A stretch of DNA of 64,000 nucleotides from Candidatus Bathyarchaeota archaeon (GTDB taxonomy: Archaea > Thermoproteota > CALKCG01 > B24): contig JAGTQM010000006.1 in the NCBI GenBank assembly GCA_018396755.1, positions 1 through 64,000 of the forward strand, written 5' to 3'. How positions within the stretch are numbered: the first letter of the stretch is position 1; every line of letters starts with the position of its first letter. The translations under genes were made by a program, and so were the position numbers. Shown in pieces: positions 1,434 to 30,247 of this stretch. The notes below the pieces were generated by a model, which saw only the letters and a program-made list of their open reading frames with translations, ran no database searches and was not told the DNA's origin.

Positions 1434-1436
1434 CTT

Positions 1437-1485
1437 AGAACTCATTTCAAAACTCTCCAGTGTATCATGATGCAGACCAGTTGTA
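1437..1485 (+). repeat. Left copy of a long inverted repeat bounding the glycerol module
   Basis: The sequence beginning AGAACTCATTTCAAAA and ending CAGACCAGTTGTA matches the reverse complement of 7403-7457. By hand alignment 44 of 49 positions agree, with one 6-base gap. The two copies face inward around the glp genes and a dead transposase. It lies immediately 3' of amzA and 170 bases before glpK. Confidence 0.8.
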
Positions 1486-1524
1486 GAAGTCTGGGCTTTA
1501 TCGATCGGTTTTCTAGAAACTGGG

Positions 1525-1558
1525 GGAGGTGGGATGGTGTTTTTGCCCACCCACCTCC
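1525..1558 (+). other. Strong hairpin upstream of glpK
   Basis: GGAGGTGGG at 1525-1533 pairs perfectly with CCCACCTCC at 1550-1558 around a 16-base loop. It sits between the left inverted repeat and glpK. It could act as a transcription barrier, a leader structure or part of the element end. The rest of the 1434-1655 gap shows no gene. Confidence 0.5.
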
Positions 1559-1655
1559 GCTCGACCTTTACGGTCCAACTGTTGTTGACCCCCAGTAAAA
1601 ACTTACCTAGAAAAGCGGAAAACTGATTAGATAGGATCATATTATAAATGCAAGT

Positions 1656-3233
1656 GTGGTTGAGGAAAAATATGTTATGGCAATAGACCAAGGTACTACT
1701 GGAACTAGAGCAATGTTGTTTACCCGCGAGGGGTTCCCCGTTAAAGGCGGCTGGGTATACCATGAACACACCCAGATATTTCCAAAGCCTGGATGGGTTG
1801 AGCATAACCCGCTTGAAATATGGGAGAGGACTAAGCAGTGTATAAAGGAAGTTCTTAAGCAGTCAAAAGTTGATGCCAAGGAGATAGCCGCCATTGGGGT
1901 TACCAACCAAAGAGAGACTACAATAATATGGGATCCGAAGACCGGAAAACCTGTCTACAATGCCATAGTGTGGCAGGATAGGAGAACAGCTCCTCGAATA
2001 GATTACTTGAGGGAGTACTACTTTGACGTTATAAAGTCTAAGTCAGGCATTATACCAGACTGCTACTTCTCAAGCACTAAGGTGTGGTGGATATTGGACA
2101 ACATTGATAACGTAAGGGAGGGGGCTAAGAAGGGAGAACTACTCTTTGGAACTATAGATACGTGGATCATATGGAACTTAACTAGGAAGTCGAAGGACGT
2201 ACTCACTCCAGAGAAGTATGGAGCACATGTAACAGATTACAGTAATGCTTCTAGAACAATGCTGTTTAATATACATAGGCTTGACTGGGATGACGAGCTT
2301 CTAGAGATTCAGGGCAAAATACCTAGGGAGTTAATGCCCCTGCCAAGGCCTTCGAGCGACAAAGCTATCTATGGGTATACAGGGCCGGAAGCAACTGAAT
2401 TAATGGGAGGAATAAGCATACCTGTAGCTGGAGATGTAGGCGATCAGCAGGCGGCGTTATTCGGTCAAGCGAGTTACAACGTCGGCGACGTTAAGTGCAC
2501 TTATGGAACAGGCAACTTCATACTCTTCAACACTGGAGCCGAAACTGTCCCATCCAAGCACGGGTTATTGACTACGGTGTATTATAGCCTTGAGCCTGGG
2601 AAGGCTGTTTACGCTTTAGAGGGCAGCATATTCATTACTGGAGCAGCTATACAGTGGTTGAGGGATGGATTAAAGCTAATTGAAGCCTCAGTGGAAGTAA
2701 ATCCACTCGCTGAATCAGCTCCAGACACCGGTGGAGTGTACTTAGTTCCAGCTTTCGTAGGACTCGGAGCTCCATACTGGGACCACTATGCTAGAGGGCT
2801 AATCATAGGAATTACTAGAGGTACTGAGAGAAAGCACATCGCTAGAGCAACTCTTGAGTCGATAGCTTATCTAACTAAAGACGTAATAGAAGCTATGACC
2901 GCTGACACTGGGCAGAAGATAACTGCGTTTAAAGCAGATGGAGGGGCGGCTAAAAGCGACTTCCTAATGCAGTTTCAAGCAGACATCCTTGACGTGAAGG
3001 TAATAAGACCTGTGGTTTTTGAAACTACAGCTCTTGGCGCATCGTATCTAGCCGGGCTGGCTGTCGAATTCTGGAAAGATTTAGAGGACGTTAGAAGGAA
3101 CTGGAAGATGGAGAGGGAATTTCTGCCAACAATGGATCCTGACAGAAGGGAGAAGCTATACGAAGGTTGGAAGGCCGCTGTACAGAAAGCTCTTGGATGG
3201 GCTAAGGAAGTCCCATGGGCGTACGGATACTGA
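1656..3233 (+). CDS. glpK: Glycerol kinase
   Basis: This full-length FGGY kinase (525 residues) phosphorylates glycerol to sn-glycerol-3-phosphate with ATP. The N-terminal phosphate-binding signature [12 protein letters not shown] lies near residue 9, and the internal signature [13 protein letters not shown] typical of GlpK lies near residue 262. The C-terminal motif [19 protein letters not shown] is also characteristic of glycerol kinases and not of xylulokinases. A GTG start at 1656 is used here; an in-frame ATG at 1677 would remove part of the first strand. It is the first gene of a four-gene run with the flavoproteins that oxidise its product, so glycerol catabolism is the evident role. 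Confidence 0.96.
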
Positions 3234-3302
3234 GGCGTTAAACGCCTCCTCAAGCATCTTTTACCTTACCCCATGTATTAGCTTTGTTGGAGGTGTACTT
3301 CT

Positions 3303-4784
3303 ATACCCCCTTTAAAGGTTGCCGTAGTTGGTGCAGGAATAGTTGGCTCATCGATAGCTAGAGTTCTAAGTACGTACGAGAACTTCGATGTAAGTATAGT
3401 GGAGAAGGAGCCTGATGTTGGTTGGGGATGTAGTAAGGCGAATACAGCGATAATCCACCCGGGACATGAGGAGGAGCCTGATGTACATCCTCTTAGAGCA
3501 AGACTCTGTAAGGAGGGGAATACTTTGTGGAGACAGTGGGCTAGGGAGCTTGACATACCAGTTAAATGGCCCGGAGAACTCATGGTCTTCTTCGATGGGG
3601 AGGAGAAAACCGCTAAGAAGTACATTAAGTTAGCCAAGCTCAATAAGATACCTGGAGTAAGAGTTGTCTATCGCGACGAGCTCCTACAAATGGATTCAAG
3701 TATTGGTCCAAGCGCTTTAGGAGCGATCTACGCGCCTACGGCTGGAATGATATCGCCTTTTGAAGCAGTAATAGCTGTAGTTGAAAACGCTGTAGACAAT
3801 GGAGTAAGGCTACTGACTGAGGCTAATGTAAGAGAAGTCAAGGTAGTTGATAAAAGGGTTAGAGGCGTAGAGACTACCAGAGGATTTATAGAGGCAGACA
3901 TAATCATTAATGCGGCTGGTTTATACTCAGATAAGGTATCGCGCATGGCTGGAGTGAATTCAGGTTTTACGGTAAGGCCTAGGAGGGGGGAGTACTTTCT
4001 ATTCGATGAAAATGTTAAAGTAAAGCCTAAGAAGATCCTGCATACGACGCCTACACCAATAACTAAGGGGGTTTATGCGATTACTACAGTTCACGGTAAC
4101 TTAATGATAGGGCCTACGGCAGAGGACTTACCCATAGACGCTAAGGATGAGTCCTCAACAAGTGAAAAAGGCCTTGAGTATTTGTGGAAGGAGTCTGAAA
4201 AACTGCTTAAGGAGCTCCCCCCAAGGACTAAGGTCATAAGAACTTTTGCTGGCCTAAGACCTGAACCTCCAGAAGGACATTGGCGTATAGAGGCTCACGA
4301 CGATCCATGGGGCTTCGTAAATGCTGCTGGAATTAGATCTCCTGGATTTGCTTCAGCGCCAGCAATAGCTTACTACGTGCTTAACCTAATCAAGGATAAG
4401 TATAGCGTAAATCTTGCTAAAAAGAAGCGTTGGAATCCGTATAGAAGCGATATAGTTAGAGTAAAAGGTAGGCCTCTTCAGGAAGTTGATGAATTAATAA
4501 GAAAGAATCCTGAGTACGGTGAAATAGTTTGTTGTTGCAAGACAGTCTCAAAGGCTGAAGTCGTTAAGGCTATTGAGAGAATGAAGAAGATTGGCGTAAA
4601 GACCGTAACTATAGATGGAATAAAGTTTAGAACTAGAGCTGGCCTTGGAATGTGCCAGGGCTCATTCTGCAGGTGGAGAGTGGCGTTACTGATATCTCAA
4701 TACGTTGGAGTGTCATTACACGAAGTTGTAGTAAAGAACGATACTTATGGCATAGGGGAAGTAAAAGTGTTGTTGAACCAGTGA
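3303..4784 (+). CDS. glpA: GlpA-like FAD-dependent glycerol-3-phosphate dehydrogenase, possible AUA start
   Basis: The product carries an FAD Rossmann motif, VAVVGAGIVGSS, about 6 residues from the proposed start, and a DAO-type oxidoreductase body. The C-terminal BFD-like domain has four cysteines (VCCCKTVSKAE ... GMCQGSFC) expected to hold a [2Fe-2S] cluster. This is the anaerobic G3P dehydrogenase/GlpA arrangement. The frame has no ATG, GTG or TTG between the preceding stop (3279) and GTG 3399, and starting at 3399 would delete the FAD motif. A GGAGGTG site at 3289-3295 lies 7 bases before ATA at 3303, so I propose an AUA start. It follows glpK by about 70 bases and is followed at once by the GlpB-like gene. 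Confidence 0.85.
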   Translation: MPPLKVAVVGAGIVGSSIARVLSTYENFDVSIVEKEPDVGWGCSKANTAIIHPGHEEEPDVHPLRARLCKEGNTLWRQWARELDIPVKWPGELMVFFDGEEKTAKKYIKLAKLNKIPGVRVVYRDELLQMDSSIGPSALGAIYAPTAGMISPFEAVIAVVENAVDNGVRLLTEANVREVKVVDKRVRGVETTRGFIEADIIINAAGLYSDKVSRMAGVNSGFTVRPRRGEYFLFDENVKVKPKKILHTTPTPITKGVYAITTVHGNLMIGPTAEDLPIDAKDESSTSEKGLEYLWKESEKLLKELPPRTKVIRTFAGLRPEPPEGHWRIEAHDDPWGFVNAAGIRSPGFASAPAIAYYVLNLIKDKYSVNLAKKKRWNPYRSDIVRVKGRPLQEVDELIRKNPEYGEIVCCCKTVSKAEVVKAIERMKKIGVKTVTIDGIKFRTRAGLGMCQGSFCRWRVALLISQYVGVSLHEVVVKNDTYGIGEVKVLLNQ

Positions 4785-4798
4785 GTTGAGTGATTGAA

Positions 4799-6058
4799 AT
4801 GCTTGAATTGAACTATGATGGCATTGTGATTGGAGCAGGTCCAGCTGGAATAGCTGCTGCGATAAGAGCTAAGGAGCTTGGACTTAAGGTAGTGCTTATT
4901 GAAAATAGAGATCTTCTTGGAGGAATACCACTGCAGTGTGTACACCCAGGATTTGGGCTCCACTACTTTAGGGAGGACTTAACTGGAACGGAGTTCATCT
5001 ATAGGCTCTTCGATAAAATGGATAAAGTTGGAGTAGAGTACCTGCTGAAGTCCCATGTTCATTCAATAGAGTTCATAGCACACAATGAAAAGATCGTGAA
5101 CGTCATAACGCCTAAGGGAGTCCTAAGTCTTAAAGCTAAGACGCTCATATATACAGCTGGAGCAAGAGAGCGACACATGTTTGAAATAAACATTGCTGGA
5201 GATAGACCTGCGGGCATTTACACAGCTGGAGAAGCTCAAATACTCATGGACATGTACGGCATTATTCCTGGGAAGGAGATAGTAATAGTTGGATCAGGCG
5301 ACATTGGGTTAATAATGGCTAGGAGGTTCGCGCTTGAGGGAGCTAAAGTCAAGGCTGTAATAGAGTTGATGTACTACCCAGGTGGATTGATAAGGAACGT
5401 CGTCCAATGCCTCCAAGATTACAATATACCACTATACTTAAGCCATGCAGTTACGAGAGTAGTAGGTAAGAAGAGAGTCGAGAAAGTAGTCGTAGCTAAA
5501 GTTGATGAAAAGCTGAGGCCTATTAAGGAGACGGAGTTCGAGATACCTTGCGATACAGTAGTGCTAGCGGCTGGCCTCATACCAAACTTAGATATGCTTG
5601 AGAAGATAGGCTTACTAGCAGATCCATATACTAGGGGTCCTATAGTAAACGAGTTTCTTGAGACAAATATACCCGGAGTGTTTGTCGCTGGAAATGCACT
5701 AGTTATAAACGACTTAGTTGACTACGTAGTTGAGCAAGGAGAATTAGCCGCAGAGGGGGCTCGTTACTTCCTGGAAAATGATGGTATACCAACGATGGAT
5801 TGGAAGCCCGTTGTAAAGGGAAGAAACATTAGGTTCGTAGTCCCACATTACGTCAGTGGTAGGAGAGACGTGACATTTTACGCTAGAGTTCAATATCCTG
5901 AGAAGAACGTAATAGTCACTATCCCTGAAGTAGGCTGGAGAATGAAAATGTTTAATGTAAGGCCGGCCGAAATGGTAAGAGTGAAGCTGAGTAAAAGGCT
6001 CTTAGACGGAGCCAGCTCTGCAGAAAAGATCTCTATTGAGGTGGCTCCTAGTGAATGA
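4799..6058 (+). CDS. FAD/NAD(P)-dependent oxidoreductase, GlpB-like partner of G3P dehydrogenase
   Basis: This is a pyridine nucleotide-disulfide oxidoreductase fold protein of about 419 residues. It has an N-terminal FAD motif VIGAGPAGIAAA and a second dinucleotide-binding motif IVGSGDIGLIMARR in the middle, with the usual ATG-type loop region VFVAGNALVINDLVDYV near residue 300. The segment LGGIPLQCVHPGFGLHYF with one cysteine is typical of the subfamily encoded between GlpA-like and DUF1667 genes. It probably passes electrons from the GlpA flavin to an acceptor. ATG 4799 is chosen; GTG 4790 is an alternative. The gene overlaps the next one. Confidence 0.85.
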   Translation: MLELNYDGIVIGAGPAGIAAAIRAKELGLKVVLIENRDLLGGIPLQCVHPGFGLHYFREDLTGTEFIYRLFDKMDKVGVEYLLKSHVHSIEFIAHNEKIVNVITPKGVLSLKAKTLIYTAGARERHMFEINIAGDRPAGIYTAGEAQILMDMYGIIPGKEIVIVGSGDIGLIMARRFALEGAKVKAVIELMYYPGGLIRNVVQCLQDYNIPLYLSHAVTRVVGKKRVEKVVVAKVDEKLRPIKETEFEIPCDTVVLAAGLIPNLDMLEKIGLLADPYTRGPIVNEFLETNIPGVFVAGNALVINDLVDYVVEQGELAAEGARYFLENDGIPTMDWKPVVKGRNIRFVVPHYVSGRRDVTFYARVQYPEKNVIVTIPEVGWRMKMFNVRPAEMVRVKLSKRLLDGASSAEKISIEVAPSE

Positions 6059-6434
6059 AGAAGATCTCATATGCATAATATGTCCTACAAGCTGCACACT
6101 AAGGGTATGTAAAGAGCTGAGTGGATCCTTAAGAGTTGAAGGAGCCCTATGTCCGAAGGGGGTGGAGTACGCGATACGGGAAGTAAATGACCCAAGGAGG
6201 GTTGTTATATCCGTAGTCAAAGTCGTAGGGGGAGACTTACCCACAGTCTCAGTTAAGACGAGCAAGCCAGTGCCAAAGAAGTGTATTCCAGAGATAATGA
6301 AGGCTACAGCATCCATAGAGCTTAAAGCGCCAGTTGAAATAGGTCAAGTAGTAATTAGGGATATTTGCGGTGTAGATGTAATTGCTACAAGAAGAGTGAA
6401 AAAAGTAAATTCAATTTATCTATTCAAACTGTGA
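6051..6434 (+). CDS. DUF1667 protein, small subunit of the G3P dehydrogenase system
   Basis: The 127-residue product begins with a CxxC...C...C segment (CIICPTSCTLRV and ALCPKGVEYA), then DPRRV and a C-terminal part typical of DUF1667. In other organisms these proteins follow GlpA-like and FAD/NAD oxidoreductase genes. The cysteines suggest an iron-sulfur or zinc site. GTG 6051 is chosen because GAGGTGG at 6038-6044 is correctly placed for it; the frame also opens at TTG 6036. It overlaps the end of the GlpB-like gene, so the two are likely co-translated. No separate membrane GlpC with two cubane motifs is present. Confidence 0.8.
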   Translation: MNEEDLICIICPTSCTLRVCKELSGSLRVEGALCPKGVEYAIREVNDPRRVVISVVKVVGGDLPTVSVKTSKPVPKKCIPEIMKATASIELKAPVEIGQVVIRDICGVDVIATRRVKKVNSIYLFKL

Positions 6435-6589
6435 TCGTTGGTATTGTTTAACTTAAGCTCTTATTTTTCTTCTCACGAGGAATTTTCGCTGGACGGGGAG
6501 GAGGGGTAAACAACTCGAAAGGAGGTGGTTCACCTGCAAGAACTCAAAAAGTTCCCCTCACCCAAAGGTGGAAGGAGAGAATAAAAGAC

Positions 6590-7200
6590 CTTTTCGTTAG
6601 AAACCGGGTGTTGGCAGAAGCGAAGGTATTCCTCCCACGTGTATATGTCTCAGGGTTCCAGCCTGAGGCGAACCAAGGAGCTTTTACGCGATCTGGATGT
6701 GCGAGTATCGCGCGCTTCGATATGGAAGTGATTCCAGAAGCTCAGGGAGCGTATCAAAACCGGATTCTTCCAAAAAGAAAGAGGCGCTACTCCGTTGTCA
6801 AGGAGATGGAAAATTCTCACACGAGAGAGCTGAATCTACGTTTTCATGGTGATAGACCTGAAAGTCACAGGTTGTTGGTTTTTCTTGTGTCGAACCATAG
6901 AGAAAGTATAGATGTGCTAAGATCCATCAACCGATGCCTTCGGTGTTGTGAAGGCGAGCCAGTTATAGTCACTGACGGCAGTCTTCGGTACTTGTGACCG
7001 GTCCAAAGGCACACGTCGTTGTCTCTAGCGGAGAGCATAACTTGGTCAAACGCTTATTCGGAACGTTAAAAGATCGCTTGCGTGTCTTTGACAGCTACTT
7101 CCCAGCAGCGGCCTGTGGACCATCGGGAACTTCTGCTCCGTCTTTTGCCTCTGGTACAGCAAGTGCAGAGGGTATTATGTCTCTCGGTGGCCGCCTCTAG
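6590..7200 (+). pseudogene. Decayed IS6-like DDE transposase
   Basis: Parts of a transposase can be read in different frames. A helix-turn-helix segment, LLRDLDVRVSRASIWKWFQKL without its last residue, lies at about 6680-6745. A catalytic-core piece with SNHRESIDVLRSINRCL and CEGEPVIVTDGS lies at about 6895-6985. A C-terminal piece with EHNLVKRLFGTLKDRLRVFD lies at about 7035-7095. Several frameshifts and stops separate them, so the gene is dead. The order HTH, DDE core, RxFGTLKDR matches IS6-type archaeal transposases. It lies inside the inverted repeats and 3' of the glycerol genes. Confidence 0.75.
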
Positions 7201-7402
7201 CGGTGAGGGAGTCCTCAAAACGTGCCTGAAGGTAGTAAGTTAACAGCATCGATAGTAAGCTGGAAAACGCTTTTAAATAGGATTTTGTAGCTATTTTCCG
7301 TTACTCGTTTATTGGTGTTCTCGAAGCACACTAGGAGTGACTGAGGCTTCAGGAGGCTCGCTCTGAAGTGGGAGAGGCTTACATAAACTTTCCTAAGCAT
7401 CA

Positions 7403-7457
7403 TACAACTGGCCTGTATCATGATATACCTGATCTAGAGAATTTTGAAATGAGTTCT
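7403..7457 (-). repeat. Right copy of the long inverted repeat
   Basis: On the minus strand this reads AGAACTCATTTCAAAA onward and ends CAGGCCAGTTGTA, matching 1437-1485 apart from a 6-base insertion (ATCAGG) and five substitutions. Its outer end touches the promoter of the next gene. No obvious target-site duplication flanks the pair: the bases outside are AGTAACTT on the left and TATATAGT on the right. Confidence 0.8.
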
Positions 7458-7477
7458 TATATAGTCCTTATATAGTC
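7456..7477 (+). promoter_or_regulatory. Tandemly duplicated TATA element before the MIP18-family gene
   Basis: The 11-mer CTTATATAGTC occurs twice in direct tandem (7456-7466 and 7467-7477). The second TATA core lies about 27 bases before ATG 7501, so transcription from it would give a leaderless mRNA. The first copy abuts the outer edge of the right inverted repeat. Confidence 0.55.
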
Positions 7478-7500: not shown

Positions 7501-7866
7501 ATGTCGCTGGATAAGAAGACGATAATGGATGTTCTTAAAGGAGTTTATGACCCAGAATACCCTGTCTCAGTAATAGAGATGAACGTAGTAGATGAAGATT
7601 CCGTTGAAATACTTGGCGATGGAAAAGTTCGTGTGACGTTTAAACCGACTACACCCCTCTGTCCAATGGGTGGCTTAATAGGTGTTCTAATAAGGTATGC
7701 TTTAGAAAAAACTTTAAACATTAAAGCTGAGGTTTTAGTTAAACCTGGGACTCATGTGAGTGAAGATGCCATCAATACTGCTATTAACGATGAAAGTCAA
7801 TACGAAGCTATTATCAGGCAACTTTCAGATACGAGTCTACTTAAGAGATGCGTTAAAGTTAAATGA
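7501..7866 (+). CDS. MIP18/DUF59-family iron-sulfur cluster assembly factor
   Basis: The 121-residue product has the DUF59 pattern: DVLKGVYDPEYPVSVIEMNVV near the N-terminus without its last residue, then PTTPLCPMGG with the conserved cysteine near residue 59. Such proteins (SufT, PaaD, CIA2-like) help deliver iron-sulfur clusters to target enzymes in the cytosol. The next gene encodes a ferredoxin, which fits a cluster-related role. The gene appears leaderless from the TATA element at about 7472. Confidence 0.85.
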   Translation: MSLDKKTIMDVLKGVYDPEYPVSVIEMNVVDEDSVEILGDGKVRVTFKPTTPLCPMGGLIGVLIRYALEKTLNIKAEVLVKPGTHVSEDAINTAINDESQYEAIIRQLSDTSLLKRCVKVK

Positions 7867-29178: not shown

Positions 29179-29465
29179 TTAGAGTGTTGTCTTCCAGGCT
29201 TGGGAGGCTGTAACATGCTCATGTGTAAGTCTAAACAGAGGTTTACCATCTCCATACTCCACTAATATTGATTCGTCGTCTGCCTCCATTTCGTAAGAGC
29301 TTTTTTCCTAATTGTTAATATTCCTTCGAATGTTAGCGTTAAGCTTGGGCTTTCAATCTTTAGTAATATGAATTTGTCTAGAACTTCCCTTTCAACTCTT
29401 GTATGTTTAATTTCTTCGATAACAATCTCTATACGACATTTCCCTTTGTTAACAGATGAACTCAT
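29179..29465 (-). pseudogene. Frameshifted small gene of unknown function
   Basis: The minus strand opens with ATG 29465 (MSSSVNKGKCRIEIVIEEI ... SPSLTLTFEGILTI). The coding character then appears to move to another frame (EKSSYEMEADDESILVEYGD then GKPLFRLTHEHV), ending at the stop 29179-29181. Taken together they look like one protein of about 95 residues broken near 29310. I do not recognise the family. If the first frame is read alone it gives a 67-residue product ending at 29262. Confidence 0.35.
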
Positions 29466-29629
29466 CTGAAAACTATTTAGATGCGGCTGGAAAGCCATAG
29501 AATCCGCCTTTAGGAGATTAGAGCTTTCAATTCTCCATTTAGATGCAACATGTATAGGTAGGGGGAGGGGGTAGGTTTAAGATAATTGCTCGGAAGCAAA
29601 TCGTCTTAATAGAGAAGAAGCTTAACACA

Positions 29630-29824
29630 ATGCTATTTCTATCAGCCTTCGAGATGCAGAAGCTGAGGGTTAAGCTTATCACAAACTTTGAACAGCTTTC
29701 CAACTCCACGGTTTCGATAACTTTCTGTAAAATTTGTTGGAATGAAATAAGCTTATTTTTAGATCTGAAAACGAGTTGTTCTCTATCTTTAAGGAAAGAT
29801 GAATTAGAGAGGCTTGAAGTTTAA
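29630..29824 (+). CDS. Hypothetical small protein, start uncertain
   Basis: From ATG 29630 this encodes 64 residues (MLFLSAFEMQKLRVKLITN and onward). The frame continues open upstream to 29558, behind a very G-rich stretch (GGGGGAGGGGG at 29561-29571), with ATA 29582 or ATT 29585 as possible non-standard starts giving IIARKQIVLIEKKLN. No domain is recognised. It may be a real short gene or a fragment in a decaying patch. Confidence 0.3.
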   Translation: MLFLSAFEMQKLRVKLITNFEQLSNSTVSITFCKICWNEISLFLDLKTSCSLSLRKDELERLEV

Positions 29825-29905
29825 TGAGATGTTACAAAGTAAAGTCTGCATGTCGAAACAAAGACTTTAAAGCAGAGTCTATGCTTAAATTTACTAGGTC
29901 TTTAG

Positions 29906-30247
29906 ATGAGAGCGGATATAGTTTTTAAAGCTGTTCTTACGAGTAAGGTTCTTACACAGGATCCGGTTGAAGGTGAATGTGTCAAATTGGATTTTTCAGA
30001 GTATAAGCCTATTCCTCCTCCAATAATAACTTCAACTGACGAATCTGGGATCGTTAGAGAAGTTGCTCCGATAATTCAGCAGGTTATTCAAAGTATGCCT
30101 TTCACTCAGAAGGGTATGGTTAAAACGCCTAGGTTTACGCTTTGGCTGACTAAGGAAGAGTGGAATTCGCTTGAGTCTAAGCCTGATATAGGTGATGAAG
30201 TTACAGTTGTAATAAGGCGTGGGGCGTTTTCAATAAACCTCAAGTAG
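29906..30247 (+). CDS. Hypothetical archaeal protein, possibly arcadin-1-like
   Basis: The 113-residue protein starts MRADIVFKAVLTSKVLTQD, has a proline-rich KPIPPPIITS segment and ends with RFTLWLTKEEWNSLESKPDI followed by GDEVTVVI. The shape of the last part (LTxEEW, then a beta strand with GDEV) resembles arcadin-1, the small protein encoded with the archaeal actin crenactin. I recall this only by pattern, and no crenactin gene is nearby. It may have a structural or nucleic-acid-related role. Its end overlaps the convergent gene by 8 bases. Confidence 0.55.
   Translation: MRADIVFKAVLTSKVLTQDPVEGECVKLDFSEYKPIPPPIITSTDESGIVREVAPIIQQVIQSMPFTQKGMVKTPRFTLWLTKEEWNSLESKPDIGDEVTVVIRRGAFSINLK

Follow-up and report, generated by a model that had tools for sequence, protein, structure and literature searches.

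Analysis of a 64,000-nucleotide stretch of the genome of a Candidatus Bathyarchaeota archaeon (the window) revealed a locus that is most probably the decayed remnant of an IS5 composite (catabolic) transposon. Each arm of the locus derives from the right end of an IS5-family element, relatives of the host carry the empty site, the cargo is foreign, and the cargo genes are under purifying selection. The first-pass annotation had proposed a catabolic transposon or the scar of a composite element. The three checks suggested there, namely a search with the repeat, a comparison of the interval in relatives, and protein trees, all favored it, and the proposal resolves to the scar of a composite element.

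The locus is bounded by an inverted repeat. Direct alignment of positions 1438-1485 with the reverse complement of positions 7403-7456 revealed 44 identical bases among 48, 4 mismatches, and a single 6-nt indel, so that the repeat reported in the first pass is real and imperfect. It encloses genes for a glycerol kinase, a GlpTk/GlpA-type glycerol-3-phosphate (G3P) dehydrogenase, an NADH-oxidase-like flavoprotein, and a DUF1667 protein, as well as a dead IS6 transposase. A search of the host's own genome (1.98 Mb in 74 contigs) with the left end as the query recovered, apart from itself, no significant match but the right arm (E value of 1.2e-6; next match, 1.15). The right-side query recovered the left arm with an E value of 5.5e-7. 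Because each side finds only its partner arm as a significant match, the inverted repeat is neither a chance similarity nor a sequence commonly dispersed in this genome, in which it is restricted to the two arms. A pattern search of 398 genomes of the phylum with the outer 20 bases revealed a matching end of about 50 bases in several further archaea.

In one of these archaea (G056), the ~50-base end forms the 3'-terminal part of a transposase frame matching DDE_Tnp_1. An intact relative (L124:1073-1879) is 807 bp long, encodes 251 amino acids, and is recognized by the IS5 family model (NF033580, 3e-58). This ~807-bp IS5-family insertion sequence occurs across thermophilic archaea, and the transposase of the intact relatives is of the DDE type, with DUF4096 and DDE_Tnp_1 domains in an element of ~0.8 kb with short terminal inverted repeats (TIRs). 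The left and right ends of the element have a 16-bp TIR (GAACTCATCTSAAAAC) in common and nothing beyond it. On the left, the TIR is followed by CTATTTAAGTC, and on the right by transposase coding sequence. A search for the 16-bp TIR pattern in viral contigs yielded 86 scattered single matches.

Comparison of the two arms with this element revealed that each arm is the right (3') end of one IS5-family element. The left remnant (1438..1495, minus strand) has the TIR GAACTCATTTCAAAAC outermost and encodes TTGLHHDTLESFEMSSKL on that strand, opposite to the coding strand of the right arm; over 57 bp, it shares 80.7% identity with the IS end of G056 (L102). The right remnant (7343..7456, plus strand) consists of the 3' end of the transposase frame, encoding LRLQEARSEVGEAYINFPKHHTTGLYHDIPDLENFEMSSYIV, and the right TIR; its identity to L102 is 75.4% over 114 bp. 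Amino acids 220 to 247, at the C-terminus of an intact IS5 transposase, match positions 7348-7431 in a tblastn search (E value of 0.008). Since the element's left end clearly departs from its right end past the 16-bp TIR, and both arms are of the right-end type, two IS5 copies are required. The cargo was thus once flanked by two IS5 copies in inverted orientation with their right ends outward. The arms were also considered as the natural long TIRs of a single element, and this was rejected because the left and right IS ends differ beyond 16 bp. As a correction to the first pass, the arms are not the ends of the IS6 element. The IS5 copies in the window keep the right end only, and there is no intact transposase inside the element; Pfam scans of transposase frames gave no matches. 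Neither IS5 copy retains its internal part, so that the composite architecture is a reconstruction based on remnants of ~58 bp and ~114 bp.

Further members of the IS5 family were observed elsewhere. The host genome carries a 403-bp internally deleted derivative (G000:C34, L105:1412-1814). At positions 29458-29929 of the window, an IS5-family left end (GAACTCATCTGAAAACTATTTAGA) is followed 456 bp on by a weak TIR match; this segment is probably a decayed IS5 remnant or a MITE. In a 1.7-Mb archaeal genome (G051), the IS5-family left end occurs over 50 times, which represents a large expansion.

The element abuts chromosomal genes on both sides, as the first pass had described: amzA ends at position 1433 (stop codon at 1431-1433), and the MIP18-family gene begins at position 7501. 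In all three available relatives from the host family (G001, G002, and G003), these two genes adjoin without an insertion. In G003, which belongs to the same genus, the interval is ~33 bp and reads ..GACTAGCTTATATAGTTGAAAC.., and the genes are similarly close in G001 and G002. In the window, the left junction reads ..GTAACTTA followed directly by GAACTC, and the right junction reads GAGTTC followed directly by TTATATAGTCCTTATATAGTCGAAG.. The IS termini match both junctions to the empty-site sequence exactly, with the terminus GAACTC set by alignment to other family members. A putative 3-bp target site duplication (TSD) was read from the sequence, with the left copy TTA at 1435..1437, directly after the amzA stop codon, and the right copy TTA at 7457..7459. 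These TTA/TTA outer flanks are consistent with a 3-bp target duplication, the chance of a putative 3-bp TSD being estimated at roughly 2 to 3%. Repeats of 3 bp flank 4 of 18 other two-ended IS5-family candidates; in G051, which is rich in IS copies, most of the two-ended copies have no recognizable TSD, and TSD statistics there are mostly uninformative. The outer TTA flanks together with the exact empty-site junctions make transposition as a single unit likely. Comparison of the window with the empty-site sequence of G003 places the element where the TATA box of the MIP18-family gene probably lies, a region that contains the tandem TTATATAGTC/CTTATATAGTC (7457..7477, plus strand). In this segment beside the right end, an 11-bp TATA-box motif is duplicated in tandem; G003 has a single copy, and the extra copy is unexplained.

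The identities that the first pass had given to the four glycerol genes are supported by Pfam and NCBIfam. The first gene, glpK (1656..3233, plus strand), encodes a glycerol kinase that scores above the cut-off of TIGR01311; an in-frame ATG at 1677 is a possible alternative start, and its best solved relatives are the glycerol kinases 6k78 and 2zf5. The second gene (3303..4784, plus strand) encodes a GlpTk/GlpA-type G3P dehydrogenase with an FAD-dependent DAO domain (Pfam DAO, 4.9e-67) and a BFD-like [2Fe-2S] domain (Fer2_BFD, 2.5e-7); its match to NF033460 (9e-61) lies below the cut-off. The third gene (4802..6058, plus strand), earlier called GlpB-like, encodes a NOX-like FAD/NAD flavoprotein (Pyr_redox_2, 4.9e-32) that is 59 to 67% identical to the product of the corresponding gene in Thermococcus operons and is the putative second subunit of a G3P dehydrogenase complex. 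The DUF1667 gene (6051..6434, plus strand; PF07892, 3.3e-27) encodes the putative third subunit. Donor homology ends at position 6418, and the open reading frame in the window is five codons longer than the donor's stop would give.

Genes for the Thermococcus-type G3P dehydrogenase (GlpTk) cluster with an NADH oxidase gene and a gene labeled as a molybdopterin oxidoreductase, and for Thermococcus kodakarensis, complex formation and activity in vitro have been described (PMC11962113). The gene order in the window, glpK-glpTk-NOX-third gene, is that of the Thermococcus GlpTk, NOX, and MOX complex (PMC11962113, its reference 35), and the main subunits are 50 to 67% identical between the Thermococcus operons and the window. 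The DUF1667 gene would then be the equivalent of the MOX gene. Unlike the Thermococcus-type operons, the window operon belongs by sequence to the Sulfolobales/Desulfurococcaceae branch, and the complex that it would encode is a putative one. Glycerol kinase and G3P dehydrogenase are patchily distributed in Archaea (PMC11962113). Judged from its gene content, the operon would allow the anaerobic conversion of glycerol via G3P to dihydroxyacetone phosphate (DHAP). No transporter gene accompanies it, and a second, native glp operon was not found in the host's own genome (about 89% complete) at an E value of 1e-80 or lower.

The horizontally acquired cargo block (1652..6418, plus strand) begins 4 bp 5' of the glpK start used and ends at the last DUF1667 codons. 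It is colinear with the loci L129 and L130 of two Sulfolobales metagenome-assembled genomes (MAGs), with nucleotide identities of 82.9% and 82.8%, respectively, over ~4.79 kb. In an alignment-based scan of 84,980 species, the best matches of the GlpB-like protein were in two Sulfolobales MAGs (87% and 84%); its identity in the host-family genome G001 is ~52%. The nearest homologs of the cargo genes are 84 to 89% identical and belong to a different archaeal class. The glp operon is present in two host-family relatives at another locus. The native operon of Candidatus Bathyarchaeota archaeon B24 (G001, L092/L158) has the same four-gene order as the window operon but differs from it in chromosomal location and in its GlpK, GlpA, and GlpB proteins (~47 to 53% identity). 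The trees of GlpB, GlpK, and GlpA agree in placing the window copy beside these Sulfolobales MAGs rather than the host family, at SH-aLRT values of 99 to 100. Grouping with the host family was rejected by the AU test (p of 1e-4 for GlpK and 4e-4 for GlpA). Codon usage is donor-like, the fraction of the Lys codon AAG being 0.70 in the operon, 0.65 in the donor, and 0.40 in the host. Among plasmid records, only bacterial GlpB homologs were found (39 to 45% identity).

In both Sulfolobales MAGs, the block lies within a larger conserved dhaKLM-glpF-glpK-A-B-DUF1667 cluster, whose dhaKLM-like and aquaporin genes were named from their sequences. Because of this larger cluster, the transfer was most likely directed into the window genome. 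The sampled Sulfolobales loci have no such IS5 ends, and the synonymous distance between the operon and the sampled donors is dS of ~0.8; the direct donor was therefore probably an unsampled relative. Acquisition of the cargo from a Sulfolobales relative, and its insertion, are close to certain. The GlpB tree contains two further apparent transfers of the same glp operon: the copy of Bathyarchaeota AUK082 (L142) groups with Thermococcales, and an Actinomycetota copy groups with a Nitrososphaeria copy (L167 and L170).

Two further segments lie inside the arms. The decayed IS6-family transposase (6530..7200, plus strand), interrupted by frameshifts and stops, had been recognized as such in the first pass. 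It matches NF033587 with an E value of 2e-4 as a single frame and of 5.2e-9 as a three-frame mosaic. The latter score falls short of the curated cut-off, which is to be expected of a gene in decay. No relatives of the one-frame fragment were found in the 398 phylum genomes at an E value of 1e-4 or lower. This fragment is a passenger and was rejected as the mover of the locus, given that both arms come from IS5 right ends. A stretch of ~130 bp (1500..1636) that separates the left IS5 remnant from glpK is predicted by folding to form a strong hairpin (GGTTTTCTAGAAACTGGGGG ... CCCCCAGT...CTAGAAAAGC). It has no Rfam match and no viral match, and its genome matches are weak (20 to 41 bp), none of them convincing. 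Twenty bases of it recur exactly in L240, adjoining a TATA-like sequence.

The four open reading frames show dN/dS values of 0.07 to 0.17, which indicate purifying selection, while the IS sequences decayed. The operon genes have therefore been maintained. The arms differ at 4 of 48 sites, and dS between the host and its sister is 0.57; provided that the arms were identical at insertion, this is consistent with insertion after the species split. The locus is best read as a domesticated composite transposon in which the IS5 copies have been shortened, the IS6 frame has been lost, and the four metabolic genes have stayed open.

Alternatively, the operon might have come by another route, such as homologous recombination or integration of a plasmid or virus, with two IS5 copies inserting later and independently at its edges. 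The host genome does hold resident IS5-family copies, and the IS6 remnant and the 130-bp hairpin also lie at the edges, which may be an insertion hot spot. This course of events is nevertheless rather unlikely, since the IS termini coincide exactly with both empty-site junctions, the TTA flanks match across the whole unit, and both copies have their right ends outward. Moreover, the left arm is closer to a right-end copy in G233 than to the host's own two aligned right-end copies, and no integrase or plasmid gene is present. Misassembly or contamination, by which a co-occurring Sulfolobales-like operon was joined into a Bathyarchaeota contig via repeated IS ends, is very improbable. The assembly is in 74 contigs and IS ends often cause false joins, but two false junctions would be needed, the flanks, when joined, exactly restore the empty site seen in three relatives, the IS remnants are diverged and absent elsewhere in the genome, and the operon differs from the sampled donors by 17%. 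An ancestral operon inherited vertically and lost in relatives, to which the glp operons of two family members might point, is scarcely credible given the other locus and low protein identity of those operons, the AU tests, and the much closer genes in a different class.

Composite transposons with inverted IS copies include Tn10 (IS10) and Tn903 (IS903, IS5 family), in which the cargo, enclosed by two inverted copies of a single IS, moves by the outer ends, and a short target duplication is generated. The window locus shares with them the cargo flanked by two inverted copies of a single IS. It differs from them in its archaeal host, its metabolic operon cargo, and its IS copies, which are end fragments without the inner IS ends. 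A partial literature search of titles and abstracts found no described catabolic composite transposon in Archaea.

The decayed IS5 composite transposon would have arisen as follows. In another archaeon, a glpK-glpTk(glpA)-NOX-DUF1667 operon of Sulfolobales-like ancestry would have become enclosed by two inverted IS5 copies with their right ends outward. An IS5 transposase may then have used the two outer terminal repeats to insert the ~6-kb unit between amzA and the MIP18-family gene on a Bathyarchaeota (B24-family) chromosome, duplicating TTA. Afterwards, the IS5 copies would have lost their transposase genes and the internal IS6 copy would have decayed too, while selection kept the four metabolic genes. 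Their products probably enable the cell to phosphorylate glycerol and, through an anaerobic dehydrogenase complex of the Thermococcus type, to oxidize G3P to DHAP. Transposition as a single unit, the route between cells, and this physiological role are inferences. The whole unit was not found at a second site in the host's own genome or in the sampled loci. Mobilization in trans is conceivable because the host genome retains IS5 relatives with perfect left ends, located at contig ends (C2 and C7); it is doubtful, though, that the outer ends are still functional and that the resident transposases could mobilize such a catabolic composite transposon.

The vehicle of such glp transfers is rarely visible. 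Because the donor lineage, the cargo boundaries, the empty site, and the responsible IS family can all be named in this one locus, it opens to direct test whether insertion sequences capture whole catabolic operons and carry them from one archaeal class to another. On the less likely reading in which the outer ends still function, the composite transposon has moved a complete glycerol-oxidizing complex between archaeal classes and would represent a working route for the exchange of metabolic genes among thermophilic archaea.
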